Source of the DNA: Xanthomonas sp.
GTDB lineage: Bacteria > Pseudomonadota > Gammaproteobacteria > Xanthomonadales > Xanthomonadaceae
DNA: 64,000 bases
Direction: 5' to 3'
Assembly: GCF_017163755.1 (NCBI RefSeq)
Contig: NZ_JAFIWC010000006.1
Location: 1-64,000, forward strand
Under the pieces are notes generated by a model. It ran no database searches. It saw nothing but the letters and a program-made list of their open reading frames with translations, and was not told the DNA's origin. Below, piece by piece: positions 41,517 to 53,064 of this stretch (positions within the stretch are counted from its first letter, which is position 1; each line of letters starts with the position of its first letter). The position numbers and the translations under genes are program-made.

Positions 41517-43094
41517 TTGAACGCTACCGCCCCGCTTCCCGCCGACGACCTGCCCTTGACCGAACGCCTGCGCGTGGCGCTGGACCTGCTCGAAGCCATC
41601 GACGCCGACCGCAGCGTGCTCGAAGCGCTGCCCGAGGCCGATCGCGTCCGCCTGCACCAGGTGGTGGCCAAGGTCTACCACCCCGAGCCGAAGGCGCGCC
41701 GGCAGAAGCTCAAGCAGCAGGCGCGCGAGCGGCACCAGGAGAAGGTGCGCAAGGCCGAGGCGCTGCTCGAACAGACCGGCATCCGCGCGCTGCGGCGCAA
41801 GCCGGTGTTCAGCACGCCCAACTACTTCCCGCCGCATGCGCCGGGACTGCACGACGCCAGCAACGGCGCGGCCGAGCAGGTCGAAGCGGCGCATTCGCCC
41901 GAGCTGCGTCACTGCTACGTGTGCAAGCAGAAGTTCACCCAGCTGCACCATTTCTACGACCAGATGTGCCCGTCCTGCGCACAGCTGAACTACTTCAAGC
42001 GCACCGAGACCGCCGACCTGCGCGGGCGCGTGGCGCTGCTGACCGGCGGCCGGGTCAAGATCGGCTACCAGGCCGGCCTGAAGCTGCTGCGCGCCGGCGC
42101 CGAGCTGATCGTGACCACGCGCTTCCCGCGCGATTCGGCGGCGCGCTATGCGCAGGAGCCGGATTTCGCCGAATGGGGCCACCGCCTGCAGGTGTTCGGC
42201 CTGGACCTGCGCCACACGCCCAGCGTCGAGGCGTTCTGCAGCCAATTGCTGGCCACGCGCGAGCGGCTGGACTTCATCGTCAACAACGCCTGCCAGACCG
42301 TGCGCCGCCCGCCGCAGTTCTACGCGCACATGATGGCCGGCGAGACCGCGGCGTTGCACGAACTGCCCGAGCACGTGCGCCGGCTGGTCGGCCACTACGA
42401 AGGCCTGCGCAGCCCGGAGCTGCTGCCGGCGGCCTCGGCGACCACGCTGCCGGCAGGCCAGGGCCACGGCCTGAGCGGTGCCGACGGGCTGACCCGCGCC
42501 GCCGAGCTGTCGCAGGTGCCGCTGCTGGCCGACGAACTGCTCGGCCAGCAGCATCTGTTCCCCGAAGGCCGGCTGGACCAGGACCTGCAACAGGTGGACC
42601 TGCGCGGACGCAACTCCTGGCGCCTGCTGATGGCCGAGGTGCCGTCGGTGGAACTGCTGGAGACGCAACTGGTCAACGCGATCGCGCCGTTCATCATCAA
42701 CGCGCGGCTCAAGCCGCTGATGCTGCGCACGCCCGAACGCGACAAGCACATCGTCAACGTCTCGGCGATGGAAGGGCAGTTCTACCGCAACTTCAAGACC
42801 ACCCGGCACCCGCATACCAACATGGCCAAGGCCGCGCTGAACATGATGACGCGCACCTCGGCGGCGGACTACCAGAACGACGGCATCCACATGAACAGCG
42901 TCGACACCGGCTGGGTGACCGACGAGGATCCGGCCGAGATCGCCGCGCGCAAGGTGCAGGAAGAGCGCTTCCATCCGCCGCTGGACATCGTCGACGGCGC
43001 CGCGCGCATCGTCGATCCGATCATCCACGGCTTCAACACCGGCGAGCACGTGTGGGGCCAGTTCCTGAAGGACTACGCGCCAACGGATTGGTGA
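41517..43094 (+). CDS. SDR oxidoreductase with N-terminal zinc ribbon
   Basis: This protein of about 525 residues has a helical N-terminal region with a basic coiled coil (about 55-85), a four-Cys zinc motif (Cys133, Cys136, Cys151, Cys154 in CYVCKQKF and QMCPSC), then a short-chain dehydrogenase fold from residue 168 (GRVALLTGGRVKIGYQAG, FIVNNACQT, HIVNVSAMEGQFYR). At the usual Tyr-x3-Lys site the sequence is HTNMAK, so the Lys is kept but Tyr is replaced by Thr, and an insertion of about 100 residues lies before it. A TTG at 41517 follows ACGGAT and is the best start; no ATG lies near. Substrate unknown; enzymatic activity is uncertain. Confidence 0.85.
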   Translation: MNATAPLPADDLPLTERLRVALDLLEAIDADRSVLEALPEADRVRLHQVVAKVYHPEPKARRQKLKQQARERHQEKVRKAEALLEQTGIRALRRKPVFSTPNYFPPHAPGLHDASNGAAEQVEAAHSPELRHCYVCKQKFTQLHHFYDQMCPSCAQLNYFKRTETADLRGRVALLTGGRVKIGYQAGLKLLRAGAELIVTTRFPRDSAARYAQEPDFAEWGHRLQVFGLDLRHTPSVEAFCSQLLATRERLDFIVNNACQTVRRPPQFYAHMMAGETAALHELPEHVRRLVGHYEGLRSPELLPAASATTLPAGQGHGLSGADGLTRAAELSQVPLLADELLGQQHLFPEGRLDQDLQQVDLRGRNSWRLLMAEVPSVELLETQLVNAIAPFIINARLKPLMLRTPERDKHIVNVSAMEGQFYRNFKTTRHPHTNMAKAALNMMTRTSAADYQNDGIHMNSVDTGWVTDEDPAEIAARKVQEERFHPPLDIVDGAARIVDPIIHGFNTGEHVWGQFLKDYAPTDW

Positions 43095-43240
43095 AGCTGG
43101 CGGCGAACATCGGCGCTGGCGTGATGCGCCGGTGTCGGCGGCCGTGCAGGTTCCGTGCGCACGGCATTGGAAGCGACTTTGCGCGCTGCAGGTGCGAGCG
43201 CAGAATCCCGCACCAGTCCCCTTGAACCGAGAACGACGAC

Positions 43241-43582
43241 ATGGCCACCGATGCCGGCTATCTGGATTACGTAGTGGAACAGGCAGGGCTCGGCGCTGCG
43301 TTGACCCACAAGAAGATGTTCGGCGAGTACGCGCTGTACCTGGACGGCAAGGTGGTGGCCTTCGTCTGCGACAACCAGTTGTTCGTCAAGCCGACCGCGG
43401 TCGGGCGCGCGTTGCTCGACGAGGTGGTCGAGCAGGCGCCGTATCCCGGCGGCAAGCCGCACCTGTTGATCGACGAAGGCCTGGATGACCGCGCATTGCT
43501 GCAGCGCTTGCTGCGCGCCACCGCGCAGGCCCTGCCGGCGCCGAAGCCGGCGAAGAAACCCGCCAAGCCGCGCAGCGCCTGA
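43241..43582 (+). CDS. TfoX N-terminal domain protein
   Basis: This 113-residue protein matches the TfoX/Sxy N-terminal domain: KKMFGEYALYLDGKVVAFVC, DNQLFVKPT and YPGGKPHLLID. Full-length TfoX regulates competence in gamma-proteobacteria and also has a C-terminal DNA-binding-like domain, which is missing here. The tail is a short Lys/Pro/Ala stretch. Stand-alone N-terminal domains are common and of unknown role, so a competence function should not be assumed. Confidence 0.88.
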   Translation: MATDAGYLDYVVEQAGLGAALTHKKMFGEYALYLDGKVVAFVCDNQLFVKPTAVGRALLDEVVEQAPYPGGKPHLLIDEGLDDRALLQRLLRATAQALPAPKPAKKPAKPRSA

Positions 43583-43838
43583 TCCGGCGAAGTCGCCGCC
43601 GCGCAGCATCGCCCCGGGCTCGCGCTGGGGCCGGCAGCGCTGCGCGACGACACGCGTGGTTGGGACCGGACGTTGCTGGCCACGGCTGCCGCAATGGCAG
43701 CTTCCACCGAGTGCTGCGCCATGCGGCGACCAAGGCCGGTAGGCGCCACCTGCCTGGCGCGGCGGAGAACGGGTGCTGGTGCCCGCGATCCGGCCCGGCC
43801 ATCGGCAGCCCACGCATGCTCGGCCATCCGCGCGCCGC

Positions 43839-44306
43839 TCAGGCCAGCTCGCGCAGCTCGGCGCGGATGCCGTCCTCGTCCAGGTGCAGATAGCCGACGC
43901 TGATCGGCAGGCGGAAGCGGCGCGGTCCGGCGCTGCCCGGGTTCACGCACAGCACGCCGTGGCGGGTCTGCACCCGCGGCGCATGCGAATGCCCGCTGAC
44001 CACCACGTCCACTGCCGCCGCGGTCGGCGACCAGGCCTTGAGGTCGTGCAGCACATGGATGCGGATGCCTGCGATCGTCACGTCCAGCTCGTCGGGCAGC
44101 GCCGCTGCCCACGGTGCGGTGTCGATGTTGCCGCGGATGGCATGCAGCGGCGCCACCTCGCGCAAGGCCTCCAGGATCTCGGGCTTGCCGACGTCGCCGG
44201 CGTGCACGATCGCAGCGCAGCCGTGCATCGCGGCCAGCGCCTGCGGCCGCAGCAGGCCGTGGGTGTCGGAGATCAGGCCGATCCGCAATGGCGCGGCTGG
44301 ACGCAT
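43839..44306 (-). CDS. YfcE/MJ0936-type metallophosphoesterase
   Basis: This 155-residue calcineurin-like phosphodiesterase has metal ligands in ISDTHG (Asp14, His16), HAGDVG (Asp38), IRGNID (Asn60), LHDLKAW and VSGHSHAP. The size fits the minimal YfcE/MJ0936 class that cleaves small phosphodiesters in vitro; the physiological substrate is unknown. I place the start at ATG 44306, which gives MRPAAPLRIGLISDTHG; upstream codons are Arg-rich and unlike the family. Confidence 0.88.
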   Translation of the reverse strand: MRPAAPLRIGLISDTHGLLRPQALAAMHGCAAIVHAGDVGKPEILEALREVAPLHAIRGNIDTAPWAAALPDELDVTIAGIRIHVLHDLKAWSPTAAAVDVVVSGHSHAPRVQTRHGVLCVNPGSAGPRRFRLPISVGYLHLDEDGIRAELRELA

Positions 44307-44612
44307 CGGTGCTCGTTCGCAAGGCGTGGCGCGCCAGCCTAACCTGGCGCGCGTCAAGGCTGTCGCAGAGCATGGCCGCTGGCCGCGACGGCGCGGAAAA
44401 CGCAGGATCGGCGATGTACGCACGATCGCTTGTCCGGACGCGGCGCAGGTGCCAATCCGGCGGCGCCGTGGCAGTAGCTGGCCCGTCGCGCCAGGACAGG
44501 CGCAGCTTGATCCAGCCGCTACTGCCCGCCAGTACGGCCGCGGTCAGGCTGCTGCCGCCTGCGGTCCGATACCGAAAGCGACTTCAGCGACCGGGCGCCG
44601 GGTAGTGGCCGC
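44307..44612. other. Intergenic region, no gene seen
   Basis: These 306 bp separate two minus-strand genes. A degenerate REP half (AAGCGACTTCAGCGACC) lies near 44576. Nothing else was recognised. Confidence 0.4.
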
Positions 44613-45059
44613 TCATGCGTTCTGGGTGCTTGACTGCACCGCACCGCGACCGCGCGGACGCAGGGCTTCCGTCAGGCCGAGAAGGACAAACACCAGGCCC
44701 ATGGCACCCACCATCCCGGGCGTGCCCCACAGCGCGCCCCGGTCATCGACGAGGGCGCTGCCGGCCGGCCACTCGGGCAGGTAGCGCACCCGCACCGGTT
44801 GACCCGGCCGATAGCCGGAGATGAAGCCGCCCTGGGGATAGGAAATTCTTTCGCCACGGCTGGTGGTGAAGGCGATCTCAGGGTGGGACCCACCGGCATT
44901 CAAACGGGTGACGATGCCATCGGCGATCTGTGCGTGGGCAAGGAATTCGCGCCGGTCGAGGACGATATGGACGGCAATGCCCAGCAGGCCGATGCCGACC
45001 AGGGCAAAAAGCAGGCCCAGCAGCCTTTGTCCGATGGAGGGCGAAGCGTGGTTGGCCAT
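44613..45059 (-). CDS. DUF3592-like membrane protein
   Basis: This 148-residue protein has two hydrophobic segments (about 12-32 and 113-131) flanking an extracytoplasmic beta domain. The domain contains ADGIVTRLNAGGSHPEIAFT, RGERISYPQGGF and YRPGQPVRVRYLPEWP, typical of the DUF3592 family (G-x-V...Y.P.V.F..G..I.......Y..G..V.V.Y.P). Function unknown. The ATG at 45059 (MANHASPS) fits other small members; ATG 45080 would add seven residues. Ribosome sites are weak for both. Confidence 0.75.
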   Translation of the reverse strand: MANHASPSIGQRLLGLLFALVGIGLLGIAVHIVLDRREFLAHAQIADGIVTRLNAGGSHPEIAFTTSRGERISYPQGGFISGYRPGQPVRVRYLPEWPAGSALVDDRGALWGTPGMVGAMGLVFVLLGLTEALRPRGRGAVQSSTQNA

Positions 45060-45314
45060 GTTCTGTCTAGGCTCGTCCATGAAATTAAGGAAGTCAGGAT
45101 ACCAAGAAGCCTCGCGATGCCGTCCCCAGGAGATGCTGGGCCGTCCTGTGATCCGGATGGAGAACGGCAGCTTGGCCGGACGCACGATAGCGGCAGTGCG
45201 ATGCGCTCGCGCGCATCCGCCAAGGCGATCGTGCAAGCGAACGACAGCCGCCGCTGTCCCATCCGGTCCGCCGGCAACCTGCACGGCGTCGCGTGGGCCT
45301 GCGATCTGCCGACG

Positions 45315-45710
45315 TCAGGGCACCGTGTTGACGGCCTCGACGTGGTGCCCGTCGGGATCGACGACGAAGGCGGCGTAGTAGTCGTCGCCGTAGTCCGGGC
45401 GCAGCCCGGGAGCGCCGTTGTCCTTGCCGCCATTGCGCAATGCCGCGTCGTGGAACGCGTCGACGGCGGCGCGGTTGGCCGCAGCGAAGGCGAGATGGAA
45501 CCCGGGACCCGGCGCGCGCGCGTTGGCGCCTCTGAGCTTGATCGCCAGCTTGTCGCCGCCGCCGGGCAGGCCATAGCCGACGGCCTGGTCGTCGTCTCCC
45601 GGACAAATGTCCTCCCACACGCGAACGTATCCGAGCGCGCCAAGCGCCGCGTCGTAGAAGCGCGCCGCGCGCTCGATGTCGGAAACGCCGAGGGAAAGGT
45701 GGTGAAGCAT
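45315..45710 (-). CDS. VOC/glyoxalase superfamily protein
   Basis: This 131-residue protein has the vicinal oxygen chelate fold: MLHHLSLGVSDIERAARFYDAALGALGYVRV at the N-terminus (metal-ligand candidate His3/His4), GPGFHLAFAAANRAAVDAFH in the middle and FVVDPDGHHVEAVNT at the C-terminus with the Glu ligand. It belongs to the branch often annotated as lactoylglutathione lyase-like. Substrate unknown; resistance proteins and dioxygenases share the fold. The ATG at 45710 starts the conserved strand. Confidence 0.85.
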   Translation of the reverse strand: MLHHLSLGVSDIERAARFYDAALGALGYVRVWEDICPGDDDQAVGYGLPGGGDKLAIKLRGANARAPGPGFHLAFAAANRAAVDAFHDAALRNGGKDNGAPGLRPDYGDDYYAAFVVDPDGHHVEAVNTVP

Positions 45711-45940
45711 AGGCAGAGGTCTCTGATGGGCTCGGAGGTCGGGAGAACCGGCCGAACCGCGTGTGGTGGATGGATTGCCGGCGTGGAGGCGACGCAAGGC
45801 CGATGGCACACGAGCCGTTGTACGTTCGCGTCGGCCGACGCGTGGCGCGCGCAGGCGAGTTGCGTAGGATAACCGCCGGCGATCATGTCGCCCATGGCAA
45901 TCCACGTTACGACCGCCTGCGACGAATGGCTGCAACCGGA

Positions 45941-46171
45941 TCAGCGGTCGGGCCGGTCGTCGGTGCCCAGGGCGTCGGTGTCCGAATCCGGCTTGGCGGG
46001 CGTCGGCTTTCGTTTGAAGTGGCCGCTGTCGTACAGGTAGCCGAGCGCCACGCAAAGGGCGATCCCGATAGTGATGCGACCGAAGAATGCGCCTATGGCG
46101 GCGCCATACACGAAGCCCAGCAGCACGCCTTTGTGCGCAGCGAGGGAACCGAAGTGCTTGTCGCTGCTCAT
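45941..46171 (-). CDS. Small membrane protein with glycine-zipper-like helix
   Basis: This 76-residue protein has a hydrophobic stretch (about 15-46, GVLLGFVYGAAIGAFFGRIT then IGIALCVALGYLY) containing small-residue spacing like glycine zippers. A basic/acidic tail follows (KRKPTPAKPDSDTDALGTDD). A strong GAGGAGG ribosome site lies 6 bases before the ATG. No known family. Confidence 0.7.
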   Translation of the reverse strand: MSSDKHFGSLAAHKGVLLGFVYGAAIGAFFGRITIGIALCVALGYLYDSGHFKRKPTPAKPDSDTDALGTDDRPDR

Positions 46172-46324
46172 GGTGCCTCCTCGAAGCCCGGCGTTGACGT
46201 GAGCGGTTGCGCAGCAGCGTCGCTGGCGCTGGCGATCGTGCCGCCGCTGCGCTGGGAATCTACCGCTTGACGTTCCGCGGACGCAAGTCGCTCCAATCCG
46301 CCAGATTCTCCACTGCGCGGAGGA

Positions 46325-46666
46325 CTACTCCGCGTCTGGATAGATGCGCACGATGCTCGTAGTGGCCTCGACCACGAAGCGGAAGCCGGCCAGGCTATCC
46401 AGAAGTTCGGCCGATACGTCGATCCGCGCATCCGGCACCCGGCGGCCCCGGTGCACGCTGCGGGTCATGTCGAACTCCACCCATTCGATTTCGGCACCCG
46501 GAACCGGCCCGAGATGCTCGGGTTCGAGGTAGCCGGGCACCGGCGCGATGAGCCGACCCCAATCGCAGGGCGCATCGCCAAGCACCTTCTTTACGCGCGC
46601 CGCGACCTTGTACCGAGAGGCAAGCACGGCGGTGGCCTGGCACCAGGTTGTTTCGCTGGATCTCAT
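46325..46666 (-). CDS. Hypothetical protein
   Basis: This 113-residue soluble protein has no membrane segment: TTWCQATAVLASRYKVAARV, then WGRLIAPVPGYLEPEHLGPV, EIEWVEFDMTRS, RIDVSAELLDSL and FRFVVEATTSIVRIYPDAE. It looks like a small alpha/beta protein with balanced composition and is probably real. I recognise no family. AGGGC lies about 8 bases before the ATG. Confidence 0.6.
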   Translation of the reverse strand: MRSSETTWCQATAVLASRYKVAARVKKVLGDAPCDWGRLIAPVPGYLEPEHLGPVPGAEIEWVEFDMTRSVHRGRRVPDARIDVSAELLDSLAGFRFVVEATTSIVRIYPDAE

Positions 46667-46898
46667 GCGTCTGCCCTAGATGCGTGCCGCGGCGGCATCC
46701 TGCCACCCGGGAGTGCTGTCGCGCTCCCAATGCCGAAAGACGGCACACGTATCTGCAGGAGCGTCCGGCAGACCCGCGTGTAGGCCAAAGACGGTCCAAA
46801 GCGAGCGGAGGAAGCCATGCGTGCGCTGCTGTGCACCCGCCTTCCCACAACCCGAACTCCGACCAAGCCCAAGCCAACCCGGCTCGGCTCTCGCGGAC

Positions 46899-47165
46899 CT
46901 AGGTGGATGCACCACCTGGTCCGCCCTTGCCCCGCAAGCGCTTGGCGGCGTTGATCAGTTGGAACATGCGAATCATCTGGAAGGCTATGAATGCGACTAT
47001 CGCCACGACAATGGCGAGCACCCCTGCGGGCGGAATCGGAACCCCGATCAGCACCGACAGGACGATGCAAATTCCCGCCGTCGCCCCGACGAACAGGATG
47101 GACCTGCCCTTGGCGCGCATCTGGCGCAACAGGGTGTCCATCTCCTTGGATTGGTTCTGCTCCAT
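46899..47165 (-). CDS. Small two-helix membrane protein
   Basis: This 88-residue protein has two hydrophobic segments (about 22-43, ILFVGATAGICIVLSVLIGV, and 46-68, AGVLAIVVAIVAFIAFQMIR). A charged N-terminus (MEQNQSKEMDTLLRQMRAKG) and a basic Gly-rich tail flank them. AAGGG lies 6 bases before the ATG. Function unknown. Confidence 0.7.
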   Translation of the reverse strand: MEQNQSKEMDTLLRQMRAKGRSILFVGATAGICIVLSVLIGVPIPPAGVLAIVVAIVAFIAFQMIRMFQLINAAKRLRGKGGPGGAST

Positions 47166-47237
47166 CCGGCCCTTCTTTCAGGTCTTCATTTTTCGATGAG
47201 TGTAACCGACCGAAGCGAACCGACATGGCTCGAGCCG

Positions 47238-47393
47238 TCAGCCAACCGTGGCCCGTATCCAGCCGATGAGCGCCAGGGCGGGCAACAGGGCCAGCAATGC
47301 GATTCCCACCGCTATCCTGCCGCGCAGATGCTTCCTCTCTGCGAAGCCGAGCGCCAGGGCAGCCAGGCCAAGAATGAGGCCCGCCCACGACAC
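47238..47393 (-). CDS. Possible tiny membrane protein downstream of DUF2625 gene
   Basis: A 51-codon frame starting at GTG 47393 encodes two hydrophobic segments (SWAGLILGLAALALGF and IAVGIALLALLPALALIGWI) joined by the basic loop AERKHLRGR. This is a typical small two-helix protein. The open frame extends upstream into the end of the DUF2625 gene without an ATG, so the start is uncertain and may rely on coupling. The amphipathic charge pattern is the main support. Confidence 0.4.
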   Translation of the reverse strand: MSWAGLILGLAALALGFAERKHLRGRIAVGIALLALLPALALIGWIRATVG

Positions 47394-47421
47394 TGGCGAA
47401 GAAGCCCAGCCTGCCGCCTCA

Positions 47422-48060
47422 TCAGGCTTGGCCGCCCAATTCCATGTTGAAGGCGTATTGCTCCGCCACGCCGATCAGCCTGCGGGAGCTCGACTCAACG
47501 GAGCCTTCCTCGGTCGAAAGAAACGGAAAGAAGTTGAAGCACTGGCTTCCATCGGCCTGGCTCACGTCGGCTTCCCACCCGGACCAGCGCATGCCTTCGT
47601 AGAACGCATCGAGCCGCTCGCTCAGCGCCCAGCACAGGAAGTCGGTATATCCGATATCCAACGCTTCCCACCGCAGCGTGTCGGGGGCGAAGTAGTACAT
47701 CGAACCCAGGTCGCTTCCCAGGGCGCCACCGTTCATCGAGAAGAAGCCGCCCACCACATCGTCGGCCACCAGCAGGTGGCCGGAAGACCGGCCGGCGTTC
47801 CATTCGACGAGGTTGCGCGGCAGCCTTGGATGGCCCGAGCCCAGGATGCGCAGCCAGCCGTGGTCGAGCAGCAGGCCGCCGGTCTCGTAGGCGATGGCGC
47901 CCATGGGGGACCGGGTCGTGACCTGAAGGCCGAGCAGGACCTCGCCCTTCTGTGCCGAAGGAGCGAGGACCTCGACCGGCCTGCTGGCTTCGGCAAGCCA
48001 TTGCCTTACCAGCGGCATCGCCGGGTCGTCGCCATCCAGCAGTTCTTCGAGAGTTCGCAT
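47422..48060 (-). CDS. DUF2625 family protein
   Basis: This 212-residue protein matches the DUF2625 family: MRTLEELLDGDDPAMPLVRQW at the start, VLLGLQVTTRSPMGAIAYET, GGLLLDHGWLRILGSGHPRL, NGGALGSDLGSMYYFAPDTL and GYTDFLCWALSERLDAFYEG. The resemblance to SMI1/KNR4-like domains in length and motif order suggests a possible immunity-type role, but this is not established. The ATG at 48060 is the family start. Confidence 0.85.
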   Translation of the reverse strand: MRTLEELLDGDDPAMPLVRQWLAEASRPVEVLAPSAQKGEVLLGLQVTTRSPMGAIAYETGGLLLDHGWLRILGSGHPRLPRNLVEWNAGRSSGHLLVADDVVGGFFSMNGGALGSDLGSMYYFAPDTLRWEALDIGYTDFLCWALSERLDAFYEGMRWSGWEADVSQADGSQCFNFFPFLSTEEGSVESSSRRLIGVAEQYAFNMELGGQA

Positions 48061-48285
48061 GTAGACCTGTTGCCTGGAACCTGGCCGGCCCGCGGAGCGG
48101 ATTCGGCCCGGTCGAATCGTGGGCGGTGGCCATGGCGGCCGCCGCGTAGCCAAAGAACGATGCGGCCGGGTAAAGAAGCCACCCGGCCACGAAGCCTGTA
48201 CGAGGTGCCAAGGATACCTGCAGCCTCGCCGTGGCGGTTGCGGTGCGGGTTGCAGCCCGTCAGGCCGCAGGCACGTCCCGGAGGA

Positions 48286-48636
48286 TCACTTCAACTCCAC
48301 CACATAGGCATTGAGCTCAGCCATCAGGCCGTCCTCGAAGCGCCACACGTCGCAATACGAATACGTGGCGTCTCGTCCGTCTTCACCCTTGAGCGTGATC
48401 TCGCCGATGGCGGCGAGCAGTTGGCCTTCGGCGATCATCCGGTGGACGTTGAACACTGGCGGCTCCTTGTATGTCTCCGCCATCCACTGGCGCAAGGCTT
48501 CCTTGCCCTCTATGGTCCTGTCGCCGATGAAGTTCCAGACCGTATCTTCGGTGCAGTGGCGCAGGAAGCCTTCGAAGTCGCCTTGGGAGATGGCCTCATT
48601 GGCCATCTCCAGCGTCTGTTTGTGCGATATGGACAT
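48286..48636 (-). CDS. NTF2-like/SnoaL-type protein
   Basis: This 116-residue protein has the NTF2-like cone fold: TLEMANEAISQGDFEGFLRH, DTVWNFIGDRTIEGKEALRQ, FNVHRMIAEGQLLAAIGEIT and SYCDVWRFEDGLMAELNAYV. Such proteins include ketosteroid isomerase-like enzymes and many of unknown function. A strong GAGGAGG precedes the ATG at 48636. It lies just beyond the distal end of the cassette array, but no attC follows it, so I treat it as chromosomal. Confidence 0.82.
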   Translation of the reverse strand: MSISHKQTLEMANEAISQGDFEGFLRHCTEDTVWNFIGDRTIEGKEALRQWMAETYKEPPVFNVHRMIAEGQLLAAIGEITLKGEDGRDATYSYCDVWRFEDGLMAELNAYVVELK

Positions 48637-48797
48637 CAAAAGCCTCCTCTTCTATCTGACAGCCATAGTGGCCAGCCAGGTGCCGTCAACGCATCATGGG
48701 CGGCTTCTACGAGGAGACGCCGAGTCATGATGAGTCGATTCGCCGACTGGTAACCGTATTGCTACGATCTCAAAGCCGCGGAGCGCTGGCATCTGCA

Positions 48798-48887
48798 ACC
48801 TAACGCTTGAGTTAAGCTGGCCCGCCCTGGCCAGCGATCAGATTAGAACCGCCACGATGCGGGCTCGGCTTGAACGAATTGTTAGGT
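48798..48887 (-). repeat. Integron attC site 1 (distal)
   Basis: 90 bp. Read on the minus strand: ACCTAAC core, then AATTCGTTCAAGCCGAGCCC, a variable loop of about 35 bp, then GCTTAACTCAAGCG and the core GTTAGGT. Both 7-bp cores fit RYYYAAC/GTTRRRY, so this site looks recombination-competent. It follows the 173-residue cassette gene by 15 bp. Confidence 0.9.
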
Positions 48888-48902
48888 CATCCTTGGCGAG
48901 CA

Positions 48903-49424
48903 TTACTGGAGAATGGCTATGTCCCCAAAGACGGACTCCGAAGTCAAGAACCGTGCATGTCCCGTGCGTTGGTTGGCGGCATAAGTCGCCGGCAAACATT
49001 GGCGGACGTACAAGGTTCGAGAATCTAACCTAATGGCCGCGCCGACATCAACGCAGTCCAGGCCTCGCCCGGAGCGACTAGAAGACATGCTGGATATTTC
49101 CGCGGAGCGCAGATGGTCGTGGCCGAAAGTAAGTGTTAGAGCCGAGCCTATTGAAAAACAAACAAACGCATATGAGAAAAAGGCCGCTATAGGAGTCAAC
49201 AGAACCCGCTGCAGTGTCTGGTTCGGCCTGCCATATAGCGACGATCGGCGGGGTGCCGAAAGACGCGTGGTCACGAAGCGAGCAAAATACCACGCGATTA
49301 GCATTGCTGGGAATGCTGCCAGAATTATCCATAGCCGAGATGGAACATAAAGCCCCCCCAACATCGATAAGATGCCTACTACAGCCATTGCTGCGAAGCC
49401 AACAGATACTGCAGCGATCTTCAT
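48903..49424 (-). CDS. Integron cassette membrane protein (orphan)
   Basis: This 173-residue protein of unknown function starts at ATG 49424 directly at the edge of attC site 2 and ends 15 bp before attC site 1, the normal cassette layout. Hydrophobic segments lie at about 2-24 (IAAVSVGFAAMAVVGILSML), 30-49 (RLWIILAAFPAMLIAWYFAR) and 75-99 (LLTPIAAFFSYAFVCFSIGS). The C-terminal half is hydrophilic with two Cys (GLDCVDVG, VRQCLPA). Codon use is less GC-biased than in neighbouring core genes. The ribosome site is poor, common for cassette genes. Confidence 0.72.
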   Translation of the reverse strand: MKIAAVSVGFAAMAVVGILSMLGGLYVPSRLWIILAAFPAMLIAWYFARFVTTRLSAPRRSSLYGRPNQTLQRVLLTPIAAFFSYAFVCFSIGSALTLTFGHDHLRSAEISSMSSSRSGRGLDCVDVGAAIRLDSRTLYVRQCLPATYAANQRTGHARFLTSESVFGDIAILQ

Positions 49425-49425
49425 A

Positions 49426-49487
49426 GCTACGCCTGAATTGAGCGAGCTGCGCCGTGAAGCGGTGTCGGCTCGAATGAATTTTTAGGC
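49426..49487 (-). repeat. Integron attC site 2 (degenerate)
   Basis: 62 bp. Minus strand: GCCTAAAAATTCATTCGAGC, a short loop, then CTCAATTCAGGCGTAGCTA. The first core reads GCCTAAA instead of GCCTAAC and the second GTAGCTA instead of GTTRRRY, so both cores are damaged. The TAA of the upstream cassette gene (49482-49484) lies inside the first core. Confidence 0.82.
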
Positions 49488-49859
49488 CGCGTCACGCGCG
49501 ACCCAAACGACTACAGCAAGCATCACCAAGGCTATGGCGCCGAGCCAACGTGGATCAAGGGCAATGGTCCTTCCGCGCGAGTCGGGGACAGTCCCTTGCT
49601 CTAGGCTGGCAATGATCTCACTCAGAGCCTCGTCCTGTTCTTTCCGATACCCAAGATATTTGACCCGGATGTCAGCGTCGTGCAGGTAGAACACGACGTG
49701 CGGAGGCAGCTGCACATCCGGAAATGTTGAGTGCCGCCAGTCAGTAAACCGTCGAGCAGCCGCGGACCAACTGTCTACGTCCTCGCGGGAAACGGGAGAG
49801 GATTGCTGCAGTCTCCGGAGCTCTTGGGCAATCTCTCTGAGTTGTGACGGATTTGCCAT
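49482..49859 (-). CDS. Integron cassette protein with C-terminal membrane anchor (orphan)
   Basis: This 125-residue protein starts at ATG 49859, 5 bases after attC site 3, and stops inside attC site 2. The N-terminal part is helical and charged (SQLREIAQELRRLQQSSPVS, WSAAARRFTDWRHSTFP). The middle contains VVFYLHDADIRVKYLGYRKE, and the end is a single membrane helix (LGAIALVMLAVVVWVARDAA), so it is probably tail-anchored in the inner membrane. No family is recognised. An upstream start at 49973 would translate the attC itself (PNNSFKPNPFAGR) and is not credible. Confidence 0.72.
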   Translation of the reverse strand: MANPSQLREIAQELRRLQQSSPVSREDVDSWSAAARRFTDWRHSTFPDVQLPPHVVFYLHDADIRVKYLGYRKEQDEALSEIIASLEQGTVPDSRGRTIALDPRWLGAIALVMLAVVVWVARDAA

Positions 49860-49864
49860 GAGTG

Positions 49865-49923
49865 ACCCGACGCCTGAGTTAAGCCGACCCGCGAACGGGT
49901 TCGGCTTGAATGAATTGTTAGGT
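49865..49923 (-). repeat. Integron attC site 3 (proximal)
   Basis: Exactly 59 bp. Minus strand: ACCTAAC, AATTCATTCAAGCCGAACCC, loop GTTC, GGGTCGGCTTAACTCAGGCG, then GTCGGGT. The first core is intact; the second has C in place of the third-position T (GTC for GTT). The stem is almost fully paired. The frame of the truncated upstream cassette reads through this site into the next cassette gene. Confidence 0.9.
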
Positions 49924-50142
49924 GCCAAGGTCAGCGTCCTTGCCGCAACGACAAGAGTACCCGGAGCAATCAATACAGCGAAAGCTACGGCGGCGCCCCG
50001 TACTAGCGGGTTGGGAAACAGAGGTCAGAGTCAACTTTCTTGCCATTGTATGAGGAGGGCGGCCCTGGCCCCTGTTTCGTTGTCCGACAATACCGCCCTA
50101 TACTCGCAGGCCCGCAGGCTTATGAACTGAAGGACGTAGATC
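49924..50142. other. Array breakpoint with truncated cassette
   Basis: On the minus strand the 70 bp before attC site 3 encode a hydrophobic end (AAVAFAVLIAPGTLVVAART) of a membrane protein with no start, so the first visible cassette is truncated near 49990-50005. The adjoining GGGAAACAGAGGTCAGAGTC (50012-50031) resembles end sequences seen near REP-associated transposase genes in this group. attI and intI would be expected here but are absent. The promoter of the Dabb gene fills the rest. Confidence 0.5.
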
Positions 50143-50571
50143 ATGACCGATCGCTCGCGCCGAGATGTCATCGTTGCAGCCACCGCTCTGGCTGTCGGCG
50201 TTGTCGCCACCGGCGCCCGCGCGGCCACTCCCATGTCCGCCGGCAAGGCATCGTTCCCGCCGGTCGTGCACCACGTGTTCTTCTGGCTGAAGAATCCGAA
50301 TTCCAAGGAGGATCTCGCCAAACTGCTCGCCGGATTACGAACGTTGGCGGGCATCGACAGCGTGCGAGGCATCCACATCGGCGTGCCGGCGGATACCGAG
50401 CAGCGCGGCGTCGTCGACGGCAGCTACAGCGCGTCGGAAATCCTGTTCTTTGACGATGTGGCCGGACAGAACGCCTATCAGGTTCATCCCATTCACAAGC
50501 AGTTCGTCGCCGACTGCGAGCACCTATGGCAGCGCGTGGTCGTGTATGACGTCAAGGCCGTCGCGCCGTAA
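50143..50571 (+). CDS. Tat-exported Dabb-domain protein
   Basis: This 142-residue protein has a twin-arginine signal ([22 protein letters not shown] at 6-7) ending near ARAA. The mature part is a stress-responsive A/B-barrel (Dabb) domain: [59 protein letters not shown] and [18 protein letters not shown]. The paired HHVFFWLK and HPIHKQF motifs are conserved in the family. Export by Tat suggests the folded domain acts in the periplasm, but its function is unknown. It lies between ilvD and the cassette array, where an integrase would be expected. Confidence 0.85.
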
Positions 50572-50743
50572 CTCGTTTGCTCCAAAGGCATGTACATAGT
50601 TCGCCGAATTCGCGAGATGCCTCTAGTTCCTTTCCTTGGCATTGGCGGGGAGAGGCACCGGCCGTAGCCGGATGCGTTTCCGGCGACGGACACTGTCGGG
50701 GCTGAAGCTCTCCTACATGCATTGCGGCGCGCGACGGAGCGCC

Positions 50744-52582
50744 TCAGCCGTCCAGCATCGCCTTGTCGCGCACCGCGCCCTTGTCCGCGCTCGTGGCCAG
50801 CAGCGCGTACGCCTTGAGTGCGGTGGTGACCTTGCGTGGACGCACTTCGACCGGCTTCCAGCCTTGCGCGTCCTGCGCGGCGCGGCGTGCGGCCAGTTCG
50901 GCGTCGTCGACCAGCAGGTTGATGCTGCGGTTGGGGATGTCGATCAGGATCCGGTCGCCGTCGCGGACCAGGCCGATTGCGCCGCCGGCGGCCGCTTCCG
51001 GCGAGGCATGGCCGATCGACAGGCCGGAGGTGCCGCCGGAGAAGCGGCCGTCGGTGAGCAGCGCGCACTGCTTGCCCAGGCCCTTGGATTTGAGATACGA
51101 GGTCGGATACAGCATCTCCTGCATGCCGGGGCCGCCCTTGGGGCCTTCGTAGCGGATCACCACCACGTCGCCGGCCTTCACTTCGTCGGCGAGGATGCCC
51201 TTGACCGCCGAATCCTGGCTCTCGAACACCTTGGCGTTGCCTTCGAACACGTGGATCGACTCGTCCACGCCGGCGGTCTTGACCACGCAGCCGTCGAGGG
51301 CGATGTTGCCGTACAGCACGGCCAGCCCGCCTTCCTGCGAGTAGGCGTGTTCGACGTCGCGGATGCAGCCGGCGGCGCGGTCGGCGTCCAGTGTCGGCCA
51401 GCGCGTGGCCTGGCTGAAGGCGACCTGGGTGGGGATGCCGGCCGGGCCGGCCTTGTAGAAGGTGTGCACGGCGTCGTCGTCGGTCCGGGTGATGTCCCAC
51501 TGCGCGATCGCATCGTCGAGCGTGCGGCTGTGCACGGTGGGCTGGCCGGTATGCAGCAGGCCGCCGCGCGCCAGTTCGCCGAGGATGGAGAGAATGCCGC
51601 CGGCGCGGTGCACGTCCTCGATGTGGTACTTCTGGATGTTCGGCGCGACCTTGCACAGCTGCGGCACGTGCCGCGACAGGCGGTCGATGTCGCGCAGGGT
51701 GAACGGCACCTCGCCTTCCTGCGCGGCGGCGAGCAGGTGCAGGATGGTGTTGGTCGAGCCGCCCATCGCGATGTCCAGGGTCATCGCGTTCTCGAATGCT
51801 TCGAAGGTGGCGATGCCGCGCGGCAGCGCGGTCGGGTCTTCGGCGCCGTACCAGCGGTGGCACAGTTCCACCGCAGTGCGTCCGGCCCTCAGGAACAGCT
51901 GTTCGCGGTCGGCGTGGGTGGCCAGCACGGTGCCGTTGCCCGGCAGCGCCAGGCCCAGCGCCTCGGTCAGGCAGTTCATCGAGTTGGCGGTGAACATGCC
52001 CGAGCAGCTGCCGCAGGTGGGGCAGGCGCTGCGTTCGAACGCGGCCACTTTCTCGTCGGAGGCGCTGTCGTCGGCGGCGATCACCATCGCGTCGATCAGG
52101 TCCAGGTTGTGGTCGGCGAGCTTGGTCTTGCCCGCTTCCATCGGCCCGCCGGACACGAACACGGTGGGGATGTTGAGCCGCAGCGCGGCCATCAGCATGC
52201 CGGGGGTGATCTTGTCGCAGTTGGAGATGCACACCAGCGCATCGGCGCAGTGCGCGTTGACCATGTACTCCACCGAGTCGGCGATGATCTCGCGGCTGGG
52301 CAGCGAGTACAGCATGCCGTCGTGGCCCATGGCGATGCCGTCGTCCACGGCGATGGTGTCGAACTCCTTGGCCACGCCGCCGACGCGTTCGATCTCGCGC
52401 GCGACCAGCTGGCCCAGATCCTTCAGGTGCACGTGCCCGGGCACGAACTGGGTGAACGAGTTGGCGATGGCGATGATCGGTTTGTGGAAATCGGCATCCT
52501 GCATGCCGGTGGCGCGCCACAGCGCGCGCGCGCCGGCCATGTTGCGGCCGTGGGTGGAGGTCTTGGAGCGATAGTCGGGCAT
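50744..52582 (-). CDS. ilvD: Dihydroxy-acid dehydratase
   Basis: This 612-residue enzyme converts 2,3-dihydroxy-isovalerate and 2,3-dihydroxy-3-methylvalerate to the 2-keto acids, the third common step of valine and isoleucine synthesis. Fe-S ligand cysteines are Cys122 (SNCDKITPG) and the CPTCGSC group (187-193). The Mg site includes Asp81 (VDDGIAMGH) and Lys124. PMEAGKTKL and [14 protein letters not shown] are family motifs, and the latter holds the catalytic Ser. The length is that of the E. coli enzyme. Its 3' end faces the cassette array, matching the known chromosomal site of Xanthomonas integrons. A degenerate REP half (GTCGGGGCTGAAGCTCTCC) lies just after the stop. Confidence 0.97.
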
Positions 52583-53064
52583 GGGAGTGGCGATATGCGG
52601 GCGGAAGGCTGGCCTGGCGCAGCCGCTAGAAACGTTGCCGTTGCAACCGTCTTGCGGCGTTTTTTTGCCTGGCCCATCACGTTAGCACGACGCCGCAGTG
52701 CACGCTGTCCGGCGCCTTGTTCGGGCGGTTCATGAGCTGCGCGTGTCGTCCCGGAAACGCCACTGCACGATCGTGCTGCTGGCCAACAACCACCTCCAGC
52801 ACGCAACAGGGGTGCTTCGGCTCGGGGGTGCCCGCCAACGACGTGCTTGGCATGCGCAAGCACGTGGACCAGAACACCTGCAGGCGAAGGGCAACATTGG
52901 CGCGGTGCAAACGTTCTTCGGGATGCGCCTTTCGAGCTACCGGCCGCCGGCGTAGTGTTCGGACACGACTTCGGCCATCCTCCCGCGACGCGCGAGGACG
53001 CCACACACACCGATGCTGGCGTCGCCGCGGCGCGCCAGCTGGTCGCGATGCCGATCCGTGGCGC
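52583..53064. other. ilvD upstream region, no gene seen
   Basis: These 482 bp lie between ilvD and the terminator of the first PstS-like gene. Open frames on both strands are unsupported. I looked for an attenuator leader peptide rich in Ile, Val or Leu before ilvD and did not find one with a start and terminator. A run of T/A (CAAAAAAACG, near 52658) lies about 75 bp before the ilvD start. Confidence 0.4.

Follow-up and report, generated by a model that had tools for sequence, protein, structure and literature searches.

The chromosomal integron next to ilvD in Xanthomonas was reportedly the subject of an earlier PCR survey by Gillings and colleagues in 2005. In the sections of Colombi et al. 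2025 (PMC12444791) drawn on here, intI is described as ancestral downstream of ilvD but truncated or absent in most Xanthomonas strains, widespread loss of intI is said to have left arrays behind, and attC clusters are reported elsewhere in about half of Xanthomonas genomes. The same sections define a CALIN as a cluster of attC sites lacking an integrase, with a two-site definition, and place the cassette promoter typically within intI.

The locus considered here lies in a window of 64,000 nucleotides (the whole stretch of DNA that was analysed) from a draft genome of 5.07 Mb assembled into 75 contigs. It resembles the Xanthomonas ilvD integron of Colombi et al., as portrayed in those sections, in its site downstream of ilvD, the type of its attC sites, its poorly known cassette genes and the loss of intI, and differs from it in that a Dabb-domain gene occupies the place of intI; in addition, a distal SnoaL-like gene may be a fossil cassette. 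As in a CALIN, there are at least 2 close attC sites (three of 40 to 68 bits and a weak fourth) and no intI nearby, but the array sits at the ancestral integron place, which makes it an integron stripped of its integrase and not one of the dispersed clusters. Given the picture of common intI loss in the cited sections of PMC12444791, such a state is ordinary for the genus, and the locus is an ordinary case of the known intI-less ilvD integron state in Xanthomonas. We are highly confident that it is a remnant of the ancestral ilvD integron, which presumably lost intI, attI and its proximal cassettes, in which the Dabb gene fills the gap, and the cassettes of which are most likely fixed. It thus represents one more documented case in which Xanthomonas, having inherited an integron, keeps losing the integrase while cassettes become fixed genes, with the useful detail of another gene sitting where the integrase was.

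Downstream from ilvD, the Dabb gene is followed by attC3, gene A, attC2, gene B, attC1, the SnoaL-like gene, a weak relic and the DUF2625 gene:

50744-52582, minus strand: ilvD, dihydroxy-acid dehydratase (NCBIfam PRK12448 and TIGR00110, far above cut-off)
50143-50571, plus strand: Dabb-domain gene occupying the intI place (Dabb, E 8.2e-18)
49865-49923, minus strand: attC3, belonging to a lost upstream cassette (68.5 bits, E 2.5e-18; R' triplet GTC, not GTT; outer arm unpaired)
49482-49859, minus strand: gene A, 125 aa (no Pfam, NCBIfam or PADLOC match; predicted helical domain and hydrophobic C-terminal helix)
49425-49487, minus strand: attC2, of cassette A (40.6 bits, E 1.5e-9; decayed)
48903-49424, minus strand: gene B, 173 aa (without a match above cut-off to any family; N-terminal part predicted to form helices, read as membrane helices, followed by a C-terminal beta domain)
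48798-48887, minus strand: attC1, of cassette B, 90 bases (63.4 bits, E 9.8e-17; AAC and GTT intact; outer arm paired)
48286-48639, minus strand: SnoaL-like gene, probably an old third cassette (SnoaL_2, E 4e-18; same gene distal in relatives G016 and G017)
48065-48124, minus strand: weakly scoring putative attC relic, flanked by the SnoaL and DUF2625 genes (24.6 bits, E 1.5e-4)
47422-48060, minus strand: DUF2625 gene, marker of the distal edge (DUF2625, E 5e-79; same order in G016 and G017)

The start of gene A is the ATG right after the attC site, which we chose over the longer TTG-start frame of the open reading frame list, and that of the DUF2625 gene was placed from the Pfam coverage, the list giving a TTG frame from 48153. 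The ilvD protein is 91% to 92% identical to those of X. pisi, X. melonis, X. phaseoli and X. populi and 84% to 85% identical to those of two Stenotrophomonas maltophilia records, which makes Xanthomonas very probable as the genus. The G+C content is 0.54 to 0.58 over 48500-49999, 0.59 to 0.61 in the adjoining intervals and 0.62 to 0.72 beyond. A promoter and terminator scan of 48700-50760, which was uninformative, yielded no site of either kind, and an Rfam scan of the 64,000-base window at gathering thresholds yielded no match.

Detection of attC sites

The sites were searched with a covariance model (R2) trained on 49 aligned attC sites from relatives and none from the genome under study; the training set was obtained from 113 distinct good matches, reduced to 51 by allowing at most 4 per genome and to 49 by dropping 2 long ones. 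An earlier model with a poor predicted structure of 7 pairs (R1) was used for no search. The base pairing of R2 is what we take to be that of attC sites and is supported by the training alignment: 89.9% of the cells pair (shuffles, 85.5%) and covariation scores 0.138 (shuffles, 0.070), both values being reached by none of 500 shuffles, while 25 of the 500 reached its 7 pairs with changes on both sides.

The first-pass annotation had read three minus-strand attC sites from the sequence and proposed a covariance-model search. The R2 scan, which took in all 64,000 bases of the window and returned 6 rows at E ≤ 10, bore this reading out, recovering all three sites with 68.5, 63.4 and 40.6 bits. 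The remaining 3 rows were the relic at 48065-48124 (24.6 bits), the site at 49865-49923 read on the opposite strand (14.3 bits) and a chance-level match (12.3 bits). With filters off, over 42000-53000, only the core of the site at 48798-48887 is matched (48805-48879, 32.2 bits). A regular-expression attC pattern read forward recovered 2 of the 3 window sites, missing the decayed one at 49425-49487, and gave no match in 639,563 reversed bases (38 loci, including those of this genome) or in the reversed window.

Further R2 matches occur elsewhere in the genome, on contigs C27 (40012, 40799), C33 (37153, 37754), C2 (46295, 46696, 3759), C41 (25181, 25815) and C74 (121685). They are mostly paired, several are without the core triplet, and no integron integrase was found in the draft genome. 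The first-pass annotation was right about the array but had overlooked these sites, as well as the Dabb gene and the weak fourth site.

Absence of an integrase at the ilvD locus

An intact intI, required for a complete integron, is absent from searches of both the window and the draft genome, in agreement with the earlier reading that no intI lies between the array and ilvD. In the window, tblastn with the IntI proteins of two relatives gave nothing better than E 0.40. Over the whole draft genome, a search also suggested by the first-pass annotation, TIGR02249 gave no intI over the cut-off on any contig and four sub-threshold pieces on two other contigs; such a sub-threshold signal is also present in 14 of 14 controls, and the two proteins concerned are identified above the cut-off as XerC and XerD.

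Comparison of the ilvD interval across 19 relatives of the genus revealed an IntI match beside ilvD in 14 and none in 5 (G001, G006, G013, G014 and G019), consistent with the proposal that this is the ancestral integron place. IntI is full-length in G003 and G017, for which no internal stop was reported, and in G002, for which one TAG was; in the others it is in pieces or truncated. The order ilvD, intI, array, SnoaL and DUF2625 is found in G016 and G017, the intI of G016 consisting of the N-terminal half alone, and G006 and G014 keep attC sites at ilvD without intI, like the genome studied here. Among 80 loci listed, 4 of them from Xanthomonas, intI sequence, whole or broken, adjoins ilvD in X. 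pisi, X. melonis, X. phaseoli and X. populi. Because the array shares both its place and its distal neighbours with the intI-bearing ilvD arrays of relatives, it is best understood as the ancestral ilvD integron minus its integrase.

A remnant of attI or intI was sought in 50581-50743 and 49926-50085, on both strands, against the proximal region of 8 relatives. In 32 local alignments, with 100 shuffles each, one score exceeded all shuffles (32 versus a maximum of 29, in G002 DNA downstream of ilvD) and one tied with the best (24 versus 24, upstream of the intI of G012). The attI region is poorly conserved, and hence its absence is weak evidence. In G017 (L081), the full-length IntI is divergent, being 60% identical to that of G003, and the attC matches of the ilvD array are weak (21.7 to 33.6 bits); this IntI may be compared with the second intI type of X. 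arboricola mentioned in the same sections of PMC12444791.

At the distal end, G017 and G016 have weak attC matches of 33.6 and 19.3 bits, respectively, in the same gap that separates the SnoaL gene from the DUF2625 gene. The DNA of 48065-48124 in our genome folds no better than shuffles (z −0.02). We regard it with moderate confidence as a fossil attC site, in which case the SnoaL-like gene would be an old cassette.

A Dabb-domain gene in the place of intI

The Dabb gene is 88% to 91% identical at the amino acid level to a gene present in 7 of the 19 relatives, always at another place, and occurs in none of the 19 fetched ilvD stretches; one copy was found in the genome studied here. The DNA match to relatives covers approximately 495 bases and ends at about 50085-50097 and 50580. 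Against the same two genomes, dS is 0.23 to 0.24 for the Dabb gene and 0.13 to 0.21 for ilvD, and since these values are close, the sequences are most simply read as those of a native gene that moved. A repeat was considered as an explanation for the junction and rejected, the pattern being single-copy in the genome at ≤1 mismatch. The Dabb replacement is the only unusual feature of the locus, and no case of a Dabb gene standing where intI would be was met in the literature consulted, which was that on integrons.

In the relatives, the surroundings of the Dabb gene (L127 to L133) are a variable region, and the 17 to 18 kb around it hold at least one attC site (E ≤ 0.001) in all 7 cases: G015 and G016 have 1 each, and the remaining five have 3 to 6. 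The left flank in G016 is common to G002, G003, G008 and G015, and the matching flank of our genome (G000) lies at the start of contig C2 (L141, 1-11000); these 11 kb, which begin at the contig end, contain one attC site but lack the Dabb gene. Recombination between two attC-bearing chromosomal loci might have transferred the Dabb gene to the ilvD integron with simultaneous deletion of intI, so that the integron would have switched itself off via its own kind of sites. The attC sites near the gene in all 7 relatives, its native-like divergence and the single copy fit such an event, but the approximately 495-base piece carries no attC site directly at either end, and we consider this route improbable.

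Decay of attC sites and cassette mobility

According to the relevant parts of earlier studies, sequence conservation in attC sites is confined to the terminal AAC and GTT (PMC2727003), and recombination takes place between the G and TT of the R' core (PMC3518468, PMC8876359). Both triplets are kept in attC1, whereas attC2 is without both and attC3 without GTT. In attC2, the AAC of R'' has become AAA, the GTT of R' is lost and 4 bases are inserted on the L' side. When the bottom strand is folded, the outer arms pair in attC1 and in two intact reference sites, whereas those of attC3 stay open and those of attC2 pair out of register. The intact core and folded bottom strand required of mobile cassettes are thus combined in just 1 of the 3 sites.

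The ilvD arrays of relatives keep GTT in 107 of 142 sites and both triplets in 96 of 142 (41 of the 142 had trained R2, being picked as good matches, and one partial match is counted as lost). Compared with the former figure, GTT in 1 of 3 sites of our ilvD array is not significantly different (Fisher p 0.16). Across the genome, GTT is present in 4 of 12 sites of ≥31 bits, as read by eye (p 0.004, which compares other loci with the ilvD arrays of relatives); the 12 are a lower bound, since 150 of 5342 first-look candidates were scored. Relatives with a broken intI or none often keep GTT in most sites (4 of 4 in G006 and 7 of 8 in G010), suggesting that loss of intI alone does not bring quick decay.

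Excision of A, B or both needs attC2 or attC3, both of which are without GTT and misfolded, and mobilisation in trans is therefore unlikely; judging from the sites themselves, the array would probably be locked even with an integrase supplied. Consequently, of the first-pass description, the decaying array without an integrase stands, whereas the suggestion that its cassettes could be moved by an integrase in trans is not supported in that form. The occurrence of well-scoring attC sites without the crossover triplet calls for caution in regarding every predicted attC cluster as mobilisable.

Origin of the locus

In the history that we favour, the cassettes would have been captured while an integron integrase was present, and intI, attI and the proximal cassettes would have been lost later, as their absence suggests, leaving a gap that the native-looking Dabb gene now fills. 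Without the integrase and, presumably, the promoter linked to intI, the cassettes would have become immobile; two of the three attC sites now have neither the crossover triplet nor the usual hairpin arms, and the cassettes are thus most likely fixed chromosomal genes, not mobile ones.

The array might instead be dormant but in working order, its cassettes being mobilised whenever an integrase comes in trans. This would accord with the intact cores and paired outer arm of 48798-48887 and with the plasmid matches to the attC DNA of the array: BLAST returned 2203 plasmid records, none covering 80% of the query, the best 8 of which are sat2 cassettes matching over 10% of the array. Short matches to sat2 only, among those listed, are however as expected if the attC sites alone match. 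Furthermore, the other two sites, being without GTT, fail even the loose GNT rule for secondary sites given in the relevant part of PMC3518468, their outer arms are open or out of register, and neither A nor B can be excised without one of them, making a working array improbable.

Integration of a separate cassette group off-target beside ilvD, independent of the old integron, would be in keeping with the lack of a clear intI or attI remnant and with the attC sites at other loci of the genome, but the place, orientation and distal neighbours match those of the G016/G017 array, which has intI sequence, and we regard such an origin as very improbable. It is likewise extremely unlikely that intI is really present and the Dabb junction a misjoin. 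The assembly is a draft of 75 contigs and the Dabb gene lies elsewhere in 7 relatives; nevertheless, the stretch is well inside a contig of 189,856 bases, no contig carries an intI over the cut-off, one Dabb copy was found, and 5 of the 19 relatives are likewise without an intI match beside ilvD. We therefore retain the ancestral ilvD integron stripped of its integrase as the origin of the locus.

Cassette genes

The two single-gene cassettes on the minus strand that had been proposed are well founded: two open reading frames fit the intervals between the attC sites, and in other genera relatives of both are found next to attC sites or enclosed by them. Neither gene A nor gene B has a family above the cut-off in Pfam, NCBIfam or PADLOC. 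A PDB sequence search gave no match for gene B and one at E 0.9 for gene A, and Foldseek comparison of the gene A model with the PDB gave no match at E ≤ 0.001. The predicted structures have pLDDT values of 83.8 for gene A and 73.8 for gene B (long helices and a beta domain); based on these models, the two genes may encode small membrane-anchored proteins.

Relatives were sought in 296 further family genomes, sampled evenly from a larger set. Those of gene A were found in 13 of the 296 (6 at E ≤ 1e-23 and 7 weak) and those of gene B in 3, adjoining an attC site in G080 and G181 but not in G193. Half of the 18 scanned loci with relatives of A or B have attC matches at E ≤ 0.001 (9 loci, two of which are the same place), and the other 9 have none at E ≤ 1. 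In G056, from another genus of the family, a gene approximately 80% identical to gene A at the amino acid level occurs at two places, each time bounded precisely by a pair of attC sites whose cores are intact; the DNA alignment extends through the whole of cassette A. Gene A has a low dN/dS of 0.17 to 0.23 in three comparisons; gene B is too divergent for dN/dS. A truncated gene was also sought upstream of 49923, but searches with three frames gave nothing outside the locus itself except one match at E 0.63. Lateral transfer of cassette A was also considered and is not demonstrable by dS, which is 0.90 between gene A and its G259 relative and hence not below the 0.43 of ilvD versus G080, from the same other genus as G259. 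The two copies of gene A in G056 (L113 and L126) are approximately 7 kb apart, each flanked by attC sites with intact cores.
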